From Tepidiforma flava (GTDB taxonomy: Bacteria; Chloroflexota; Dehalococcoidia; Tepidiformales; Tepidiformaceae), in assembly GCF_027594505.1 (NCBI RefSeq), contig NZ_CP115149.1, forward strand, positions 2,000,460 through 2,064,459: DNA of 64,000 nucleotides, in the 5' to 3' direction. The translations under genes and the position numbers were made by a program. Each line of letters opens with the position of its first letter. Positions within the stretch are counted from its first letter, which is position 1. A model generated the notes under the pieces. That model was not told where the DNA came from, did no database searches, and saw nothing but the letters and a program-made list of their open reading frames with translations. Below are positions 46,288-62,058 of this stretch, one piece after another.

Positions 46288-48130
<1,843 letters not shown>

Positions 48131-48154
48131 CGGCCTCCGGCAGGCACCCCGCAC

Positions 48155-48181
48155 GAAAAACGCCGCCCGGGCGGGCGGCGT
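48155..48181 (-). terminator. Terminator of the tRNA-Gly-like gene
   Basis: A 9-bp stem (48160-48168 with 48173-48181). On the minus strand it is followed by five T (48159-48155). It may also stop ldh transcription from the other side. Confidence 0.75.
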
Positions 48182-48198
48182 CATGCTATTCGAACGGT

Positions 48199-48267
48199 TG
48201 GAGCGGATGGCGGGAATCGAACCCGCGTCTCAACCTTGGGAAGGTTGCGTTACTGCTCAGCAGCCGC
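48199..48267 (-). tRNA. tRNA-Gly(CCC)-like gene with undersized D-arm
   Basis: T-arm GCGGG TTCGATT CCCGC, anticodon arm CAACC TTCCCAA GGTTG (anticodon CCC) and 3' CATCCGC-T-CCA are all good. The 5' strand GCGGCTG pairs with one mismatch (C5-U68). Only 13 nt lie between acceptor and anticodon stems instead of about 19, so no normal D-arm can form. Total 69 nt. Either the sequence has lost about 6 nt or this is a degenerate or attachment-site tRNA remnant. Confidence 0.65.
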
Positions 48268-48551
48268 CGTGCCACATATCTTCGAGCAATGCCTACCGAA
48301 TCTTGCCACGGCGAAAAAGAGGCAACGTCAGCATGCCGTTGCGCCGGGCGTTTTGAGCCTCCACGGCGCCTGTGGCGACGCGTTGGTAGCCAGGACGCCG
48401 CCAGTTGATTGAAGGTCCATGTTGCGCTGCGTCATGGCGGGAGCTGGAGCTCGGCACCGGCCTGGTTTCGGTTTCCCCGCGGGGCCGCATGAAATTCGGT
48501 CACCCTTCGAGGAGTAGCGCCCTGGTCGGGCCTGGGGTATAAACGTCGTTG
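48268..48551. other. Intergenic gap between tRNA-Gly and the riboswitch
   Basis: No coding frame is convincing. A TATAAA-like -10 box (48538-48543) lies just before the riboswitch and could be its promoter. The + strand skew changes from C-rich to G-rich across this stretch. Confidence 0.4.
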
Positions 48552-48654
48552 CGTATCGAGAGAGGCGCGAGGGCACCGGCCCGATGACCGCCCGGCAACC
48601 CGGTGGACGCCGCCAGGGTGCCAAAGCCGGTCCTGCTTCGGCAGGGACGATACG
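48552..48654 (+). ncRNA. SAM-I (S-box) riboswitch
   Basis: P1 forms from CGTATCG (48552-48558) and CGATACG (48648-48654). The conserved core is present in order: AGAGAGG, GAGGGCACCGGCCC, GATGA, CCCGGCAACC and GGTGCCAAA, then the P4 hairpin CCTGC-TTCG-GCAGG. These are the S-adenosylmethionine-binding elements of the S-box family. No methionine or SAM gene follows; the next long gene is a MoxR ATPase about 210 nt downstream. Confidence 0.88.
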
Positions 48655-48862
48655 GCTCACGTCGAGCAACGAACGGCGTGGGCCCCTCCGGCGGCCGCAG
48701 CGATGCGGCCAGCAGCGAAGGATGGAGGAGGCCGCGATGCAGGCTCGCTCTCCCTGACCCGGTTTCTGTGCGGCATGTGCCGCAGGCAGCGGCGTGTCCG
48801 AAGCGCGGCCGGGGTGACCCGGCGCCTCTCCCGATGCAGCTGCGCGAAGGAGACGTGCCGAG
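48655..48862 (+). other. Putative expression platform and leader between riboswitch and moxR
   Basis: Contains a 7-bp hairpin with GCGA tetraloop (48693-48710), a GGAGGAGG purine run and an 11-codon open frame ending before 48760. A second perfect hairpin (TGCGGCA-TG-TGCCGCA, 48769-48784) follows. No U-tract terminator is seen, so control could be at translation level. No gene of over 30 codons is supported. Confidence 0.4.
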
Positions 48863-49969
48863 ATGTCGAAACTCCCTGTACCTCCCGTCGTCAACGTCCT
48901 GTCCGTCGCCGTCCAGGCTGGCGTGCCGGTCCTGCTGTGGGGCGCGCCCGGGACGGGGAAATCGTCGCTCATCCGGCAGCTGGGCGTCGCGCTCGGGCTG
49001 CCGGTGGAGGTCGTCATCGCCGCCATCCGGGAGCCGAGCGATTTCGCCGGGCTGCCGATCGTGGTGGACGGCGAGGTGCGCTTCGCCCCGCCGGCCTGGG
49101 CGCGCCGGCTGGCCGCGGCCGGCCGCGGCCTTTTGTTCCTGGACGAGATTTCGACGGCGCCGCCGGCGGTGCAGGCCGCGCTGCTGCGGGTGGTGCTGGA
49201 GCGGGTGGTGGGCGACCTGGAACTCCCGGCCGGGGTGGCGGTGGTAGCCTCCGCGAACCCGGTGGAGCAGGCAGCGGGCGGCTGGGAGCTGAGCGCGCCG
49301 CTGGCGAACCGCTTCCTGCACCTGGAGTGGCGGCCCTCCCCGAAAAACTGGGTGGCCGGGCTGCAATCGGGCTGGGAGCTGTGGGAGCCGCCCGCCGTGC
49401 CGGCGGACTGGGAGAACGAGCTGCCGGCAGCGCGGGAGGCGGTCGCCCGGTTCATCACGGCGCGGCCGAAAGCCCTCATCGAGTGCCCGGCTGACGCACA
49501 GCAGAGGAGCGGACCGTGGCCCTCGCCGCGGACGTGGGAGATGGCGGCGCGGCTGCTGGCGGCCGCGAGGGCGGCGCGGCTGCGCTCGGCAGACATCGAG
49601 GTCATCATCAAAGGGCTCGTTGGCCGCGGCCGGGCCATGGAGTTCTTCGAAGTCCAGCGGACGGGGGAGCTCTGGGATGCCGCTGCCGCACTGCAGAGCC
49701 CGGAGGGCTACGAATACCCCGAGGAGCCCGACCTGCTGGAGGGACTGCTGGATGACGTGTGCAGCCGGGCGCTCCAGAAGGACGACTGGAGCCGGGCCTG
49801 GAGGGTCCTCGCAGTGGTCGGCCAGAAGTTCGGGCGCGACCGGGTCGCCCACCATGCACTGCAGCTGCTGGAGCAGGGCGCAGGGGAACACGGCATCCCG
49901 CGCGAGGCGGCGCGCATCCTGGGGCCTGCGGCGGCGGACGCTGCGGCGGCTGCGGGAGGCGGGGCATGA
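48863..49969 (+). CDS. MoxR-family AAA+ ATPase
   Basis: A 368-aa ATPase. Walker A WGAPGTGKSS (about residue 28), Walker B LLFLDEIST (about 92), sensor-1 VVASANPVEQAAGG and an arginine-finger-like LANRF, then an alpha-helical lid. MoxR ATPases act as chaperones for VWA partner proteins, and the next gene is one, overlapping by ATGA. Codons end mostly in G, unlike the C-ending plus-strand genes to the left. Start follows GAAGGAG. Confidence 0.85.
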   Translation: MSKLPVPPVVNVLSVAVQAGVPVLLWGAPGTGKSSLIRQLGVALGLPVEVVIAAIREPSDFAGLPIVVDGEVRFAPPAWARRLAAAGRGLLFLDEISTAPPAVQAALLRVVLERVVGDLELPAGVAVVASANPVEQAAGGWELSAPLANRFLHLEWRPSPKNWVAGLQSGWELWEPPAVPADWENELPAAREAVARFITARPKALIECPADAQQRSGPWPSPRTWEMAARLLAAARAARLRSADIEVIIKGLVGRGRAMEFFEVQRTGELWDAAAALQSPEGYEYPEEPDLLEGLLDDVCSRALQKDDWSRAWRVLAVVGQKFGRDRVAHHALQLLEQGAGEHGIPREAARILGPAAADAAAAAGGGA

Positions 49970-51648
49970 ACGGCAGCGGGCGCTGGCGGTTCATACGCAT
50001 CGGCATGCGTTGGCGCGACCTCGACGGCGCGGAACGGGAGAGCCGGCGCGCCGGCGACCCGTCGGAGCCGGACCCGGCGCCCGGCGTGAGTCTGCAGCGG
50101 GGTGCCCTCAAGGCGATCTTCTGGCAGCGGCGCCGGAACGGGGTTTCGTCGATGACCAATGACTGGCTGCTCGTCATCGGCCGGACCGTCGTGCATATCG
50201 ACATCAAAGGAGGCTGTTCGCTCACTGCGCCGTTCGCCGCCTACCGGCGGCTGGCGACTGGGGCGAGCCTGCACGAAGCGGAGCTGCGCGAGCGGCTGCG
50301 GCTGCTGGAAGAGGCGCTCCCGCCGGGCTCTCCAGAGGTGGCGCAGGCAGAGGAATGGCTGGCGGGCCTGGGAGAGCCGATGCCGCCCGCGCGGGCCGAA
50401 GAGGCGGCTGCCCTGCTGGCGCTGGCGGAGCGGTTCGGGGAGCGGCAGGAATCCTCCGCCGACCCGATGACGCGGGCCCAGCGCGCGCTTCGGCGCCGGC
50501 TGCCGTTCTTCAGCGCCCTGCTCCTGCGGGTCCAGGCCGTCCCGGTGACCGGCGCCGGGACCGCGACGATCGACCGCTGGGGACGGCTCTTCTACGACCC
50601 CGGCTGGCTCGGAGAGCTGACTGTGAACGCCGCCATGGCAGTCGTCTACCACGAATTGTCCCACCTCCTGCGGCTGCACCATCTGCGCGGAGAACGGCTG
50701 GGAGAGACCGGGGAGCTCTGGAACATCGCCTGCGACCTGGAGGTGAACGATGACCTGCCGCTCGATTTCCCGCTGCCTCCCGGCGCGCTGACGCCGGCCC
50801 GCCTGGGGTTGGAGAGCGGCGGCCTGGCGGAGGAGTACTTCGCCCTGTTGAAAGAGCGTCCCGAACTGGTGCCGCCGCAAGCGGGGGTCACAGTCGGCGG
50901 CGGGAGCTGCGGCTCCGGGGCCGGCGAACCGGCGCCCTGGGAGACGGCCGACCCGGCACAGGAGGCCGGGCCCGGGGGAGATCGCTGGTGGCTTTCCACC
51001 ATCGAGCTCGAGTCGATTGCGGCGGCGGCCGCCGACGAGTTGAGGAATCGTTGGAGCGGCCACTTCGGCAGCTGGAGCCGCTGGGCGGGCTGGCCGGCCC
51101 AGCCGAGCCGCGACTGGCGGCGGGAGCTGGCGCTGGCCATCCGGGCCGTTTTCGCCCACGCGAGCGGCGCATCGGACTACAGCTACGGCCGTCCTTCGCG
51201 GCGGGCGAGCGTCGCCGGCCCGGTCGTCCTGCCGTCGGTGGTGGCGCACCGGTCGGAGGTGGCCATCGTGGTCGACACCTCGGCCAGCATGTCGGAGGAC
51301 CAGCTGGCGCGGGCGCTCGGCGAAATAGACGCCATCCTCCGGGCCAACGGGCGGCAGCCCGCGACCGTGTACGCCGTCGACACGAAGGTGAAGGCCGTCT
51401 CCCGGGCGGCGAGCGCCCGGCAGGTGCGCCTGGCCGGCCGCGGCGGCACGAACATGGTCGAGGGCATCCGGGCAGCCCTCCGGAGCCGCCCGAGGCCGGG
51501 ATTGATCATCCTGCTCACCGACGGCGACACGCCATGGCCGATTGACGCGCCGCCAGTCCCGGTAATCGTTGGACTCATCCGCCGCGATGGACGCCCTTAT
51601 GGCGGCATACCCGCCTGGGCGCGCACCGTCCTGGTGCCGGCCGGCTGA
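49966..51648 (+). CDS. VWA protein with N-terminal HExxH metallopeptidase-like domain (DUF2201-like)
   Basis: A 560-aa protein. The N-terminal 60 residues are charged. Around residue 228 is VVYHELSHLL, a zinc-peptidase HExxH motif in the manner of DUF2201-type VWA partners, with ACDLEVNDD downstream. A Gly/Pro-rich linker precedes a C-terminal VWA domain with MIDAS-like DTSASMSED (about residue 435), the Thr of GGTNMVEG and LLTDGD. Start ATG 49966 overlaps the moxR stop. The pair probably forms a chaperone-adaptor unit; its target is unknown. Confidence 0.82.
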   Translation: MNGSGRWRFIRIGMRWRDLDGAERESRRAGDPSEPDPAPGVSLQRGALKAIFWQRRRNGVSSMTNDWLLVIGRTVVHIDIKGGCSLTAPFAAYRRLATGASLHEAELRERLRLLEEALPPGSPEVAQAEEWLAGLGEPMPPARAEEAAALLALAERFGERQESSADPMTRAQRALRRRLPFFSALLLRVQAVPVTGAGTATIDRWGRLFYDPGWLGELTVNAAMAVVYHELSHLLRLHHLRGERLGETGELWNIACDLEVNDDLPLDFPLPPGALTPARLGLESGGLAEEYFALLKERPELVPPQAGVTVGGGSCGSGAGEPAPWETADPAQEAGPGGDRWWLSTIELESIAAAAADELRNRWSGHFGSWSRWAGWPAQPSRDWRRELALAIRAVFAHASGASDYSYGRPSRRASVAGPVVLPSVVAHRSEVAIVVDTSASMSEDQLARALGEIDAILRANGRQPATVYAVDTKVKAVSRAASARQVRLAGRGGTNMVEGIRAALRSRPRPGLIILLTDGDTPWPIDAPPVPVIVGLIRRDGRPYGGIPAWARTVLVPAG

Positions 51649-52163: not shown

Positions 52164-54511
52164 GTTTCAGTCCCCTCGCGGGGATTCGAGCGGTGAAACT
52201 CGTCGAAAAGGCGGTCACCGCCATCGTTCTGCAGTAGAGGTTTCAGTCCCCTCGCGGGGATTCGAGCGGTGAAACAGCGCGACGCCGACATCAGCCTCCC
52301 GCGCGAGGTTGCCGCCAGTTTCAGTCCCCTCGCGGGGATTCGAGCGGTGAAACTGGCGAACACGAATACGTGTTCATCAGCTTCGCGTGTAAAAGGTTTC
52401 AGTCCCCTCGCGGGGATTCGAGCGGTGAAACTGTCCAGTGTCAGCGTCAAGCGGTATAGCGGCAGTTTCGATAGGGTTTCAGTCCCCTCGCGGGGATTCG
52501 AGCGGTGAAACCAAACAGGAAGGGGCTGGCATCCCGCGCATCATGCCGATGGTTTCAGTCCCCTCGCGGGGATTCGAGCGGTGAAACGACAGACGCGCCG
52601 TCGGGCGTGACGTTCTCGGCGCCGGTGTCGTTTCAGTCCCCTCGCGGGGATTCGAGCGGTGAAACGTGCGAAGGTGCCGTCGGCGGCGGCGGCGCGTTCG
52701 CGTTTCGGGTTTCAGTCCCCTCGCGGGGATTCGAGCGGTGAAACTTCGACAAGGTCGAAATCGCGGAAGCCTAGCACCGAAACGAGTTTCAGTCCCCTCG
52801 CGGGGATTCGAGCGGTGAAACAGCGCGACGCCGACATCAGCCTCCCGCGCGAGGTTGCCGCCAGTTTCAGTCCCCTCGCGGGGATTCGAGCGGTGAAACT
52901 GGCGAACACGAATACGTGTTCATCAGCTTCGCGTGTAAAAGTCGAGTTTCAGTCCCCTCGCGGGGATTCGAGCGGTGAAACAGTGATGAGGGTGTCGCCG
53001 GCGCCGGCGCCGGTCGGGAGCATGTTTCAGTCCCCTCGCGGGGATTCGAGCGGTGAAACCTGCGAAGGTGCCGTCGGCGGCGGCGGCGCGTTCGCGTTTC
53101 GGCAAGTTTCAGTCCCCTCGCGGGGATTCGAGCGGTGAAACATGAGTGAGGGTGTCGCCGGCGCCGGCGCCGAGAGTCGGGAGCATGTTTCAGTCCCCTC
53201 GCGGGGATTCGAGCGGTGAAACCAAGGCTCGCGAGGAGACGGTGTCGACGGTGCTGACGCTCATGTGGTTTCAGCCCCCTCGCGGGGATTCGAGCGGTGA
53301 AACCCGAAGATCACCGCGAAGACATTCGAGCAGCAGGATCTCCTCGAGTTTCAGTCCCCTCGCGGGGATTCGAGCGGTGAAACTGCCTGCGCTTCCCTCC
53401 TGTTCGCTGCTGGTCCTCATTCGTCCGGGTTTCAGTCCCCTCGCGGGGATTCGAGCGGTGAAACGGCGTCTCGTTGTCGAACTCCCGAACGGGGTGGATG
53501 TCCTCGGGCGTTTCAGCCCCCTCGCGGGGATTCGAGCGGTGAAACCCGAAGATCACCGCGAAGACATTCGAGCAGCAGGATCTCCTCGAGTTTCAGTCCC
53601 CTCGCGGGGATTCGAGCGGTGAAACTGTGGTTATGCTCGCTCTGGACATCCCGGCGGATGTCCAGTGTCAGTTTCAGTCCCCTCGCGGGGATTCGAGCGG
53701 TGAAACCTTTATCATGGCAGATTCGATATTCATTCACTCGATCAGATGCCAAGTTTCAGTCCCCTCGCGGGGATTCGAGCGGTGAAACCTGAGTGATTCC
53801 GACATCATGGCCGCAATCGAGAGCGGCGATCTTGTTTCAGTCCCCTCGCGGGGATTCGAGCGGTGAAACTCAGCCGGCTGCCCGATGAGGAGGCCCGGCT
53901 CGTGCTCCTCGGGAGTTTCAGTCCCCTCGCGGGGATTCGAGCGGTGAAACCTTTATCATGGCAGATTCGATATTCATTCACTCGATCAGATGCCAAGTTT
54001 CAGTCCCCTCGCGGGGATTCGAGCGGTGAAACTCGTCCGGTCCCGGCACGGGTTCTGCCTCGGCACGCCGGAGTGTTTCAGTCCCCTCGCGGGGATTCGA
54101 GCGGTGAAACGGGATCGGCGGCGCGAGCAGCGCCGGCAGTGGGCCGAGTAGTTTCAGTCCCCTCGCGGGGATTCGAGCGGTGAAACTAGGCGAAAATCCC
54201 AAGGCGGCAAACGGGATCCTCATAATCCGCGGTTTCAGTCCCCTCGCGGGGATTCGAGCGGTGAAACTCAGCCGGCTGCCCGATGAGGAGGCCCGGCTCG
54301 TGCTCACTCGGGAGTTTCAGTCCCCTCGCGGGGATTCGAGCGGTGATCGAACGCGTATCGTAGAGTTCCCAGATCGGGAGGCCCCTGCCGGGGAGTTTCA
54401 GTCCCCTCGCGGGGATTCGAGCGGTGAAACTTAAGACGCTGTTCAACGCACCAGAGCTTGGCAACCCAAATGTCAGTTTCAGTCCCCTCGCGGGGATTCG
54501 AGCGGTGAAAC
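52164..54511 (+). CRISPR. CRISPR array: 30 repeats of 36 nt, 29 spacers
   Basis: Repeat begins GTTTCAGTCCCC and ends GAGCGGTGAAAC, with an internal TCCCC-TCGC-GGGGA hairpin; the end GGTGAAAC fits a type III 5' handle. Spacers are 40-46 nt. Variants: T-to-C at repeat position 8 in the repeats at 53268 and 53510, and a damaged 3' end in the repeat at 54314 (third from last), suggesting the right side is the old end. Duplicated spacers: 52276=52822, 53304=53546, 53707=53951 exactly; 52354~52900, 52666~53060, 52982~53142, 53870~54268 with small indels. Confidence 0.97.
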
Positions 54512-57291: not shown

Positions 57292-59722
57292 ATGACGCAG
57301 GCGAGTGGCGTGCGAATTTCGGAAGAGGTATTCCGCGCCTACTGCGGCGGCCTGGTGCACGACCTCGGGAAGGTCTGGGCGCAGGTGCCGGGGCGCGGCG
57401 TCGAGCCCTCGAAGTACGGGTGCGAAACGCCCGAGCGGCACCAGGTCCGGTTCGTCCGACTGCCCGAGCTGTCGAGAACGCTATCGTTATGCCCACGGGC
57501 CGATTGGCGCCAACTTGCTCCAGGCGACCATCCCGGGGCATTCCTTCCTGGCCGAGGCCTCGCGGCCCATCACCACAGCCGCGACGCCGCGGAGATTTCG
57601 GACCTCTTGCGGTGGGTGGTGCTTGGCGACCACCTCTCAGCCGGCGAACGCGACGACGCAGTACGACGCCGGCAACACTCCCCCGCGTGCCGGCTTTACT
57701 CAACCCGGCTGGCCGGCGGCGAGGTGTACACGCGGCCCGCTCCGCTGGGGGCCGGGCTCTTCTTCGTGACAGCTGAGCTCCCCCGACCCCGCAAGCGAAG
57801 CGCGGGACTGCATTTGGCGCGGTGGTTGATGAGCTCCGCCAGGCCCTGGCGGAAGCGGGCAGCCGCGCTGGGGGGAGCCTGGCGGCGCTCGCCGAGCACC
57901 TGACCGGCGCCGTGTACCGCGGAGGGATCGGCGTGCCTTCAGCCTTTGCGAAGGCGGTTGCCGACATCCCGCTCGCCACGCATCTCCATCTCGCCGGCGC
58001 GTTCGCGGCGGCGCTCGCAGCCGACCGCTCGGACGCCACGCGACGCGTCGTCGGCCGCGGTCGGGATCGTCGCCGGCGACGTTTCGGGCATTCAGGAGTT
58101 CATCCACGACACGGGGAGACGCAGGGCGGCGCGGGCGCTCCGGGCACGGTCGTTCTATGTTCAGCTGCTCTCGCTCGTCGCGGCCCGGTGGGTGGCGCTG
58201 CAGTGCGGGGTGCCGGCCGGGTGCGCCTTTTCCGTGGTCGGCGGCCGATTCCTGGTGGCCGTGCCGGCGTCGAGCGTCGGCGCGGTCGAGTCCCTGCAGG
58301 CGGAGCTGGACCGCATCCTCTGGAAGGCGCACGGCCCGACGCTCTCCATCGGCCTGGCGGCGGTCACGGCAAGCGGTGACGCGCTCAGCAACTTCCGCGC
58401 GGTGTATGAGGAGCTGCAGCAGCGCCTGGGGGTCCGCAAGGGGCAGCGCTACCGCAGCCTCGCGAGGTCGGGCGACCTCTTCGCGCCGCAGGCCGTAGTC
58501 GCGGCAGGCCGGGCCTGCCGAACCTGCGGGCGGGAGGCCGGCGATGGACGGGAGGAGGATGATGACGGCGTCGCGCGGCGCGTTTGCGCGATGTGCGCGT
58601 CACTGGAAGAGCTCGGGAGGGAGCTGCTCGACAGCTCCTACCTCGTCCTCCGCGAAGCAGGTGCGGCCGAGCGGGGCGGCGAGGCTGGCTCGGCGTGATG
58701 CGCGCCCTCGGTCACGACGTCGAGCTGGTCCAGGCGCTTGGCGCGGGCCCGGTCGAGGGCAGGCCATCGTTGCGCTGGACGACGCCGCGCTGGGGGCAGT
58801 GCCTTGCGCCCGCTACGTCCCCACGGCCCGGCACGCTCCCCGGAGTTCGAGCGGCCTGCTCGATTTCGAGGCCATCGCGCGGGCGGGCCGAGGGCGCCCG
58901 GCGATCGCGACCCTGAAGGCCGACGTCGACGACCTCGGCCGGTTCCTCGGTGACTACTTCTCGGTGCGCCCCTCCTCTCCCTCGCGGTTCCTGGCTATCA
59001 GCACCGCCCTCTCACTGTTCTTCGAGGCCTATTTGCCGCAGCTGGCAGCGCGCGAGTTCCCGAACCTTTACCTCGTCTTCAGCGGGACGGCGATGCGACG
59101 CCGCGGTCGCCGGGCCGGCCTCACCGACGTGCTGCCGTTCATCGTCGAGACTCCGCGACGACTTTCGCCGCTGGACTGCCGGGAACGGGCGGCTCCACTT
59201 CTCGGCAGGGGTATCGGCCAGCCATCCTCACCGGCCGGTCCAGTCGGGCATGGAGGAAGCGGAGCGGTTCCTTGCGCTTGCGAAGGGGCACCGCCAAGCC
59301 CCGGAGGGGAGACGAAGAACGCCGTCACCCTGCTCTCTGTGACGCTCGGATGGGACGAACTGAAGAGAGTGCTCAGCACATGGCCACGCAGACGAGCTCG
59401 CCAGCCTCGCGGGAGCCGAAAGCGACACGCAAGGCGGACGCCGACTGGCGCGGGGAGCGCTCCAGTGCATCTGCAGCAGCTCGAAGGCGCGAGGCCGGGA
59501 CAGTACGGCCCCCTGCACTGGAAGTCGTTCTACCAGTTCAGCCGCGTCGCAAAGGACTATCCGCAGGCAGGGCAGCTGCTTTCGGACCTGCGGCGCCAGG
59601 CCCTGGAGCCCGGCGGGGCAGGCGGCCGGGCGGTCGCCCTTGCCGCCCGGCTGGCGAGAACTCCAGACGGCACCGTCGGCCACGGGGGTCGGGAAGTCAT
59701 CATCATGAGGGAGGTCATATGA
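57292..59722 (+). pseudogene. cas10: cas10/csm1, type III-A signature subunit (many frameshifts)
   Basis: Large effector subunit. HD nuclease motif GGLVHDLGKVW at the N-terminus (about 57345-57375). First Palm GDVSGIQEFIHDTG with ARALRARSFYVQLL (about 58075-58170). Zinc-ribbon CRTCG...CAMC (about 58510-58600). Second Palm LKADVDDLGRFL (about 58912). The GGDD cyclase motif expected near 59085-59110 is not readable in one frame (SGTAMRRRG and SGRRCDAAVAG are the options). KNAVTLLSVTLGWDELK and LHWKSFYQFSRVAKDY mark the C-terminal domain. ATG 57292; stop overlaps csm2 (ATGA). Confidence 0.85.
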
Positions 59723-60174
59723 GCCAGCGGCCGCATTACACCGGGAACCGGGCGCCGCAGCCGCCGACGGGACGGGCTGGGGCGCTTCGACCGGAAAAGT
59801 ACGAACAGCAGGCCAAGCGCACTCATCGACGAAGCGGCGATGCGCAAACGCTCGTCGAATTCAGTGCCGAGCAAATCGGTTCCTCCGGCAACCGGCAACC
59901 CGGACGTCGCGTGCGGCGCCTCTACGGTGAGGCCCGCCGGCATCGACTTCCTCCTGGACCAGGACGAGGCAACGGCCCTCCGGCGGGCGCGGCTGCTCGA
60001 GCCGCTAGGCTGGTCTACCAGGTCAAGCGCGACACGAATCTGACCGAGGTGGCGGAGGCGCTGCTGGCGCTCCTCCGCCGAGCCTCAGCGCCGTCCGACC
60101 CCCAGGGCCCGGCAAAGTACCGGCGGTTCGCAGAGTTCTTCGAGGCCGTGGTGGCCTACATGCCGGAAAAGTAG
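59719..60174 (+). pseudogene. csm2: csm2, small subunit (frameshifted)
   Basis: Helical subunit lining the Csm filament, about 151 codons. N-terminus MSQRPHYTGNRAPQP; the C-terminus RLVYQVKRDTNLTEVAEALLALLRR...YRRFAEFFEAVVAYMPEK is typical of Csm2. The middle (about 59800-60010) changes frame at least twice. ATG overlaps the cas10 stop. Confidence 0.75.
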
Positions 60175-60197
60175 CACCTGGAAGGAGAAAAGCGCAC

Positions 60198-61001
60198 ATG
60201 GCCACGCAGACCAGGACCGCCACTATCGACCGCATCCTGCACGCTCAGCTGCACCATCCGCGCCCGGACCGGCCTCCGCATCGGTGCACAGGAAGCATCC
60301 CTGACGATCGGCGGCGTCGATAACCCCGTGGTGCGCGACCCGCTGACGAGGCAGCCGTACGTCCCGGGCTCTTCTATCAAAGGAAAGATGCGCTCCCTTC
60401 TCGAGCGCGTCCACGGAGCTCGAGCAGAACTGGGCTATCCAGCGGGACCGCGTCCTCGTGCACGTGTGCAAGGACGAGGACGACTACCTCGCCTGCACGC
60501 TGTGCCAGCTCTTCGGCGTCCCGGCGCAGCGGAGCGGGAGCGGTGGCTTTGCCAGACGCGCCTCCGCTTCTCCGACGTGTTCATGACCCCGGAATCCGCT
60601 GAGCGGCTCGTCAGGGCGAACACCGACTTGCCGTACACCGAACTCAAATCCGAAGCCGCGATCGACCGGGTCACCGTCGGCGGCAGTGCCGCGCACGATG
60701 GAGCGCGTGCCAGCCGGCACCGAATTCGGCCCGTGCGAAATCGCGCTGTTCATCTATGAAGGCGACGACCCGGCCCGGGGCCTCGACTGGCTCGTCGCCG
60801 GGCTGGAGCTCCTCGAAGCGGATGCGCTCGGCTCATCGACGGCGCGAGGTTCCGGCCGCGATCGCCTTCCGGGACATCGCGTTCCAGCGCCTCCGGGTGC
60901 GGGGCGGCCGACTCGAGCGCGCCGCCTATGGGACAATTGCCCCTTCCGTGGGTGACCTCCGCAGCGGCCTCGACCAGCTGGTCGCCTGGGCGGCGGGCTG
61001 A
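60198..61001 (+). pseudogene. csm3: csm3, backbone RNase subunit (frameshifted)
   Basis: RAMP backbone that cleaves target RNA. GIGAQEASLTIGGVDNPVVRDPL contains the conserved Asp of the cleavage loop (codon 60319-60321), followed by YVPGSSIKGKMRSLLERVHG. Later pieces: CTLCQLFGVPAQ, RLRFSDVFMTPESAERL, MERVPAGTEFGPCEIALFIYEGDD and FRDIAFQRLRVRGG, in three frames. ATG 60198 follows GAAGGAG. About 267 codons. Confidence 0.85.
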
Positions 61002-61003
61002 CG

Positions 61004-62058
61004 ATGGCCGGCGACCGGGCCCCTGGCTGATCAGGCTCGAGCCGCTGGCTCGCCATTCCACCTCGGCGCGCACGCGGAGGACCTCGACCGTGCGCGGCCC
61101 CTGGCATCGTCCGACACGCTCTTCGGGGCCCTCTGCTGGGCCTACCGCGCGGTGTGGGGCACCGCCGAACTCGAGGCCTGGCTGGAGCGCTTCCGCGAAG
61201 GCGACCCCCCGCTTCGCATCAGCAGCTGATGCTCCCGGTCCTGGAGCACGGCCCGGCGCCGCAGGTGCTCCTGCCGCTTCCCTACCGGCGCCCGGTTCGG
61301 CAGCTCGAAGGCGACCGGAAGCTGCTTAAGCACACCCGATTCATCGACCGGGAAGCGTGGCGGGGGCTCTTCGCGGACGATGGAGTCGAACTCGAGGCCG
61401 TTGGCGCAGGTTCTCGCCGGCGCCGCAGTGGCCGCGGCCCTGCGGGAGCCGGGCGGGGCCGCGTCTCCAGCCCTGGGCGCTGAGTTCGCGGCCCCGGGTC
61501 ACCGTCGACCGCGTCTCAGGAGCTTCGGCGCTCTTCGAAGCCGCGGCGGCGCACTTCCCAGCTCGCCCGGACCGGCGCCATCCGCCTCATGCCCGATGCA
61601 TCAGTCGCCCTCGCGTCCGACCAGGCGGCGCTCGACCGCATCCTCACCTGCTTCGAAGTCCTCGGCGAGGCCGGGATCGGCGCGGGAGCGCTCGACCGGC
61701 CTCGGCCGGTTTCGGCCGCTGGACCCGGTGGCATCGCCCGTTCCGGTTTCCGGCTCCCCGGGCGCGGTGGCCGCTGCTCTCGCTGGCCTGGCTCGACGCC
61801 AGCCGACCTCGCAAGCGGCGCGCTCGAGCTGCCCGCCGACCGGGGCTACCGCGTCGTCGAGCGGGGCGGCTGGATCGCATCGCCCGAATGGCAGGGACGC
61901 ACGCTCCCGGCGGGTCGCGATGGTGGCCGAAGGCTCCTATCTCCGTGGCGGGAACGGCCCCGGCGGCGGCGCTGGCTGACGTCACCCCCGAGGCCGGCGG
62001 GCCCCACCCGGTGTACCGGTACGGCTTCGGCCTGTTCCTCGAGGAGGCCGCCCTGTGA
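61004..62058 (+). pseudogene. csm4: csm4, crRNA 5'-handle cap subunit (frameshifted)
   Basis: RAMP subunit binding the crRNA 5' tag. FHLGAHAEDLDRARPLASSDTLFGALCWAYRAVWG matches the Csm4 N-terminus (split between frames near 61060). RRPVRQLEGDRKLLKHTRFIDREAW, ALDRILTCFEVLGEAGIG, then ERSTGLGRFRPLDPVASP follow. The C-terminus PHPVYRYGFGLFLEEAAL ends at TGA 62058. ATG lies 3 nt after the csm3 stop. About 350 codons with at least five frame changes. Confidence 0.82.

Follow-up and report, generated by a model that had tools for sequence, protein, structure and literature searches.

Riboswitches of the SAM-I class (S box, RF00162) repress expression when S-adenosylmethionine (SAM) is abundant. Pairs of a MoxR-type AAA+ ATPase and a VWA protein, such as RavA/ViaA and the rubisco activases, remodel client proteins. 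NorQ/NorD is a further MoxR/VWA pair, and such pairs remodel clients or load metals, according to PMC13036017. The two subjects meet in a 64,000-nt stretch of the Tepidiforma flava genome (hereafter the window; G000:C1:2000460-2064459 within a 2.77-Mb genome), where a SAM-I riboswitch stands ahead of an island-borne MoxR/VWA pair. The riboswitch probably represses the pair when SAM is plentiful and permits its expression when SAM is low. No paper tying SAM riboswitches to MoxR genes was found in our searches of the open-licence literature, outside which most subscription papers lie.

A SAM-I aptamer with a SAM-I/IV-like extension

The aptamer occupies positions 48550-48656 on the forward strand of the window (G000:C1:2049009-2049115). 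It is covered full-length by RF00162 in an Rfam covariance-model search, with 55.4 bits against a gathering cut-off of 44.4 (E 4.5e-10), which bears out the SAM-I riboswitch proposed in a first-pass annotation of this DNA. As in SAM-I, the conserved core, P1, P2 with its internal loop, P3 and P4 are present. The element differs from SAM-I in preceding a MoxR/VWA pair rather than methionine or SAM genes, and in carrying, past P1, a 3' extension in the style of SAM-I/IV (RF01725; 48655-48679, forward strand). This extension consists of a hairpin P5 (48655-48658 with 48664-48667) and the strand CGGCGT (48674-48679), which is complementary to the P3 loop ACGCCG (48607-48612), so that a pseudoknot is predicted. 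By complementarity, the P5 pairing GCTC/GAGC is also present at the corresponding locus of a genome from another genus (G010), as is a 6-bp complement to the P3 loop. The pseudoknot prediction is based on complementarity and not on covariation, and in some elements the best complements sat in other places or were shorter (for example in the SAM-I/IV elements of L147 and L148).

The extension reads CAACGAACGGCG in the window and CAACCAACGGCG in G010; the latter is also the wording of a SAM-I/IV element elsewhere in the T. flava genome (L005), one letter away from that of the window. SAM-I/IV variants lack the P2 internal loop according to PMC2864571, whereas the window RNA keeps this loop and is assigned to SAM-I by Rfam. 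Since its SAM-I features are kept and its 3' extension has nearly the letters of the L005 element, the window RNA resembles SAM-I in its core and SAM-I/IV in its tail. An intrinsic terminator, which is a common but not obligatory platform of SAM-I, was not found in a consensus scan of 48100-49000, nor was a sigma-70 promoter, and the predicted platform is sequestration of a Shine-Dalgarno (SD) sequence.

Past the extension, a predicted anti-SD strand (GGGCCCCTCC, 48680-48689, forward strand) pairs with the SD of a short open reading frame (ORF) in the leader folds of both genomes. In the window this SD is strong (GGAGGAGG, 48724-48731) and serves a six-codon ORF (MQARSP, 48737-48757; the two together 48724-48757, forward strand); the G010 counterpart has nine codons and is preceded by GGAGGG. 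The SD of moxR itself (AAGGAG) lies at 48847-48852 on the same strand, and the moxR ATG is 206 nt from the end of the aptamer. A structured leader of about 210 nt had been claimed in the first-pass annotation, of which the length is confirmed; its fold has a modest advantage over its own shuffles (z -2.2), and the leader includes the conserved extension. The case for an RNA element is carried by the covariance-model match and by conservation across genera.

This layout of aptamer, short ORF and gene 206 nt further on is not odd for the family, since most family SAM-I leaders share it. Among 30 other family SAM-I loci (L001, L087-L115, high-scoring), a short ORF is present in 28, and the start of the main gene is visible in 28, some 150-200 nt past the aptamer. 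The short leader ORF is conserved, with GR in 28/30 and mostly with the ending GRMxM plus a few residues, and a regulatory leader peptide is possible. The main gene starts like MSFAKNLRCREC, and we take it to be threonine-synthase-like. The T. flava genome carries three SAM-I aptamers in total.

Conservation in a second genus

SAM-I and MoxR places lie side by side at at least four sites in 38 genomes of the family: G000 (T. flava), G010, G023 and G036. In G010, an orthologous MoxR gene (product 54% identical) and a VWA gene stand behind a SAM-I aptamer of 57.3 bits. Aptamer and extension have the same base at 128 of 139 aligned positions in G000 and G010 (92%), against 644/1061 for moxR (61%), 874/1643 for the VWA gene (53%), and 46-50% for the flanks (102/222 upstream, 79/157 in the rest of the leader). 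On a finer split, 79 of 81 bases agree in the core, 44 of 45 in the 3' extension (48646-48690) and 6 of 15 in the P4 hairpin; most aptamer differences therefore sit in P4, whose stem is formed from different letters in the two genomes. Judged from the alignment, the differences are distributed as in an RNA kept by selection.

The MoxR and VWA genes

The next long genes on the strand of the riboswitch encode a MoxR ATPase and a VWA protein with HExxH, as the first-pass annotation had read them and as Pfam and the motif confirm. The first (48863-49969, forward strand) encodes a MoxR-type AAA+ ATPase of 368 aa with AAA_5, AAA_3 and bpMoxR above the Pfam cut-offs. The second (49966-51648, forward strand), whose start overlaps the moxR stop (49966 against 49969), encodes a DUF2201 protein of 560 aa, with a putative metallopeptidase domain containing HExxH (DUF2201_N, PF13203, 84.5 bits) and a VWA-like domain (PF09967, 70.5 bits), both above the Pfam cut-off. 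The closest named relatives of the MoxR protein are from Tepidiforma metagenome-assembled genomes (MAGs). One Tepidiforma MAG has a c-di-AMP riboswitch (L007:793-948, 54.2 bits) close to its MoxR locus.

The HExxH motif of the window protein is at residues 229-233 (HELSH). In an alignment of VWA proteins of this type (VWA1), it is found in all four members of the Tepidiforma group, the window included, and the glutamate is missing in all 12 other relatives (11 actinobacterial and one labelled Dormiibacterota). The motif is kept in 15/15 VWA proteins of a second operon type (VWA2, below), which are homologous to VWA1 across the HExxH region (hhalign probability 83%, E 8.8e-6). With the glutamate lost in 12/12 other VWA1 relatives, the family is unlikely to have peptidase activity as its common core, and of the metalloprotease label in the first-pass annotation the motif stands while the activity is putative. 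For the VWA protein of the window, AlphaFold gave a model (mean predicted local distance difference test score 65) of which only the VWA domain had clear fold matches, and CobT, CoxE and ViaA are not among the structure matches listed for this model. A weak match of selecase (4qhi, E 0.083) to another part of the model was not used as evidence. The DUF2201 profile gave no sequence match to solved structures at E 0.1.

Compared with NorQ/NorD and RavA/ViaA, the window pair has an extra HExxH domain and a SAM riboswitch. The MoxR-vWA ternary conflict systems (bpMoxR, VMAP, iSTAND) are also similar, in that the window MoxR matches the bpMoxR model above its cut-off (33.6 against 27). In the window, no accepted gene lies in the 515 bp between the VWA stop at 51648 and a CRISPR array starting at 52164 (ORFs there are at most 143 aa, and none is accepted by coding score), the search for VMAP, iSTAND, FtsH and beta-propeller components being confined to this interval. 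The word riboswitch does not occur in the main text of the paper on these systems (PMC7159879).

A second operon type with a SAM synthetase homologue

SAM-clan riboswitches also occur upstream of a second MoxR/VWA pair that is distant from the first. The order in G023 and G036 is SAM-I aptamer, small protein, MoxR2, small protein X, VWA2 with HExxH and MetK2, a divergent SAM synthetase; the two MoxR2 proteins are 58.8% identical. No earlier description of MoxR2-X-VWA2, usually followed by MetK2, was found in the open-licence literature. The DNA upstream of MoxR2 could be read in eight loci, five of which have SAM-I or SAM-I/IV above the cut-off and two below it. G023 and G036 each have both SAM-I and SAM-I/IV above the cut-off, L159 (an IMG/VR contig) has SAM-I/IV at 74.3 bits, G519 has SAM-I at 51.9 bits, and G503 has two SAM-I/IV elements at 65.2 and 58.6 bits. 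The sub-threshold matches are in G416 (36.1 bits, E 0.026) and G479 (33.1 bits, E 0.12), against a SAM-I/IV cut-off of 41.1; they are in the right place and on the right strand, and both come from one genus. MetK2 is found behind VWA2 in 6/8 loci (in G479 on a second contig), and in L159 VWA2 is cut short. The riboswitch-MoxR linkage, on the conservation of which the first-pass annotation had let its proposal depend, is thus present in a second genus and in seven of eight loci of a distant pair (two of them sub-threshold), six of which have a SAM synthetase homologue.

In larger collections, the VWA2 query gave 1378 matches among 7992 scored candidates, and the MetK2 query 1974 among 7998, with ordinary MetK perhaps included. 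Of 120 listed VWA2 relatives, 28 match the longest-contig size of some entry among 120 listed MetK2 relatives, compared with a mean of 0.97 matches (at most 4) when sizes were shifted by 1 to 60 bases; in this count, taken from lists transcribed by hand, the size 4826 serves two VWA2 entries and the G023 contig is included. From the excess of shared sizes over the shifted control, VWA2 and MetK2 travel together. VWA2 was found in 5/301 genomes of the phylum, and these five with G023, G036 and L159 make up the eight loci above. Among 41 genomes of the class of G416 it was found in three, all previously found in this analysis, and among 245 genomes of the class of the window in none, a sample that missed the carriers G023 and G036 and so sets no bound on frequency. 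No Pfam match above cut-off was obtained for protein X or for the small leader proteins.

Among solved structures, MetK2 of G023 finds SAM synthetases (best E 6e-34). Eleven MetK2 and three canonical sequences were aligned (L175 left out), and MetK2 shares 29-33% identity with the canonical MetK of T. flava; GHPDK and GGGA are kept and GRKI reads GKKL in 11/11, and in G503 the lysine ending the GGGAFSGKDPTK motif is absent. A search for PF02773 in five genomes found just a high-scoring MetK in each of G000, G010 and G024, both kinds in G036, and just MetK2 in G023, which is 72% complete; the single match in G000 is at C1:1955521. Several databases label the MetK2 clade simply as SAM synthetase.

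SAM synthetases are also carried by phages: MetK homologues of 27-48% identity, some of them partial, were found in 20 of 50,697 phage records, and in G036 the MetK2 operon follows phage genes, which Pfam identifies as terminase and portal. MetK2 differs from these in standing in an operon with MoxR2-X-VWA2, and at E 1e-5 VWA2 has no match among the phage records; it was also not found in plasmid records. In viral contigs, the exact aptamer-signature pattern had no match, none of 11 and none of 135 pattern matches to MetK2 was confirmed, and MoxR2 of L159 found the same contig only.

SAM-I elements also adjoin a lone 83-aa protein, which is found in 5/38 family genomes and always beside such an element. 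In T. flava this locus (L005:6597-7206; G000:C1:112599-113205) has SAM-I/IV and SAM-I in tandem ahead of the 83-aa protein, without MoxR2, VWA2 or MetK2. In G025 the riboswitch is sub-threshold (29 bits) and the 83-aa gene is split into two frames, and the two seem to be decaying together.

Genomic island and CRISPR neighbourhood

Counted from the left border, the riboswitch and the MoxR/VWA pair come first on an island of about 30 kb (window 48256 to L006:14576), which lies in tRNA-Gly(CCC) and carries a phage-type integrase, type I restriction-modification genes and type III CRISPR-Cas genes. A 424-bp direct repeat marks its borders, the left copy (47834-48256) being 95.8% identical to L006:14154-14576. 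The right copy ends in the intact tRNA-Gly(CCC) (L006:14520-14593) and the left in the 3' 55 nt of that tRNA (96% identical). An Rfam tRNA call of 35.3 bits at 48202-48267 on the reverse strand, not made by ARAGORN, is this 3' remnant. Upstream of the border is a gene for a malate/lactate-type dehydrogenase (47195-48130). At the same site, G023 has the pair in the opposite direction and without a riboswitch.

Behind the pair is a CRISPR array of 30 repeats of 36 bp (52164-54511, forward strand; 30 matches at three or fewer mismatches, 0 expected), and homologues of Cas10 and Csm5 lie inside the island. Cas10 and its neighbours at 57946-61400 look broken across frames, by decay or assembly error. 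Downstream of the G010 pair are a repeat array (read from ORF translations only), Cas1 and Csx1/Csm6. In PADLOC, the window MoxR has weak generic AAA matches only and the window VWA protein none. In G024 (L153:3686-13574), homologues of HmaA and HmaB (PADLOC 1502 and 1355 bits) stand behind an orthologous MoxR-VWA pair that lacks a riboswitch. The gene list around the paralogous pair of T. flava at the matching site (L154) contains no HmaA/HmaB-like genes.

Origin of the linkage and alternative explanations

Several observations weigh against SAM control of the window pair. Its three nearest copies (G023 C5, G024 C5 and the T. flava paralogue at 1583166) have no riboswitch. The 206-nt gap and the six-codon ORF make coupling of the aptamer to moxR uncertain, and no metK2 lies alongside the pair, the CRISPR array being next after the VWA gene. 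Among the second-type loci, L159 has two ORFs between aptamer and MoxR2, and G475 has MoxR2-X-VWA2 with neither a riboswitch nor MetK2 in the 16 kb examined; the sole locus lacking a riboswitch is thus the sole one in which MetK2 was sought and not found. The window-type pair is common in Actinobacteria, with a VWA homologue alongside MoxR in 76 of 84 stretches (two loci counted twice). In the 80 loci of window-MoxR relatives (the best 80 of 126 confirmed by a collection scan), no riboswitch was found with model R1, an RNAalifold structure of 18 pairs that is lineage-specific and weak and missed the SAM-I/IV of L159. A core motif, which missed L159 as well, gave one unconvincing match in these loci, and Rfam at gathering cut-off found none in 12 of them. 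As far as such scans reach, SAM control is not a general property of the window-type pair. The riboswitch of the window is, on the same comparisons, a derived acquisition, being absent from the three close copies and, by weak scans, from the loci of the 80 relatives. Apart from G010, the nearest aptamers are four of the second type at 70-72% (two before MoxR2 and two before the lone 83-aa gene), against 58-66% for 16 aptamers of the family high-scoring set; if the riboswitch was captured, a locus of the second type is therefore more likely as its source than an ordinary methionine gene, by a modest margin.

An acquired riboswitch could be a passenger, that is a SAM leader, perhaps still joined to the opening codons of the gene it once served, left by recombination on the island and controlling the tiny ORF or nothing. 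The position of the pair just inside a mobile-island border would suit this, as would the riboswitch-less copies, the intervening ORF of six or nine codons and the unconserved rest of the leader. A passenger should decay, however, and between the two genera the aptamer and anti-SD strand have stayed 92% identical amid surroundings of 46-61%. A short ORF between aptamer and gene is moreover normal in the family, and separate SAM-clan riboswitches stand before MoxR2/VWA2. We consider a passenger rather unlikely. The first-pass annotation had offered two options, a new SAM-linked function of the pair, or capture of the riboswitch of a methionine gene that was lost. Because a second genus shares the linkage and it recurs before MoxR2-X-VWA2 with MetK2, a SAM-linked role is preferred; the loss and capture of a methionine leader is weakened, not dead.

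The SAM-linked role might also be one in defence, the riboswitch acting as an alarm for SAM depletion: when a phage degrades SAM or uses it up, repression would be lifted and the MoxR/VWA pair armed beside type III CRISPR and type I restriction. The array and cas genes downstream in both genera are compatible with this, as are the type I methyltransferase and restriction subunit on the island and the HmaA and HmaB homologues behind the G024 pair, and MoxR-vWA pairs are core parts of the conflict systems described in PMC7159879. Only two riboswitch-bearing loci of the window type are available, though, the PADLOC matches of the window MoxR are weak and generic while the VWA protein has none, and operons of the second type carry MetK2. 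An alarm of this kind is improbable as the function of the riboswitch.

Proposed mechanism and significance

Under the preferred reading, SAM control of the pair, the aptamer RNA would bind SAM and control would be exerted at translation. In four Tepidiformaceae leaders of the second type (L147, L148, L005 and L149), the next gene has its GGAG(G) SD within the 3' strand of P1, and in these SAM-stabilized P1 would hide the SD; in the window, the conserved anti-SD strand would cover the SD of the short ORF. These two features are the grounds for translational control. The MoxR and VWA proteins may form an ATP-driven machine for remodelling or metal handling, like NorQ/NorD and RavA/ViaA. Low SAM would then induce a chaperone pair acting on an enzyme that supplies or uses SAM, most plausibly a SAM synthetase. 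For the operons of the second type, MetK2 is the obvious candidate client, and as no metK is found beside the window pair, its client would be encoded elsewhere.

By analogy with the rubisco activase CbbQO, the loci could together represent a module in which SAM riboswitches control MoxR/VWA chaperones, and these remodel SAM synthetase or restore its activity (a "SAM synthetase activase"). Phages and islands would have carried the module into several phyla, and a dedicated MetK2 with GKKL in place of GRKI would belong to it; the window would be an uncoupled form, and may be a SAM-depletion alarm beside type III CRISPR. This wider scheme is speculative and, as a whole, unlikely. A riboswitch and the genes behind it give a strong clue to what those genes do, and a SAM riboswitch before MoxR/VWA genes, together with an operon that includes a SAM synthetase, ties a widespread and little-understood chaperone family to SAM metabolism, bringing to light a divergent clade of SAM synthetases, MetK2.

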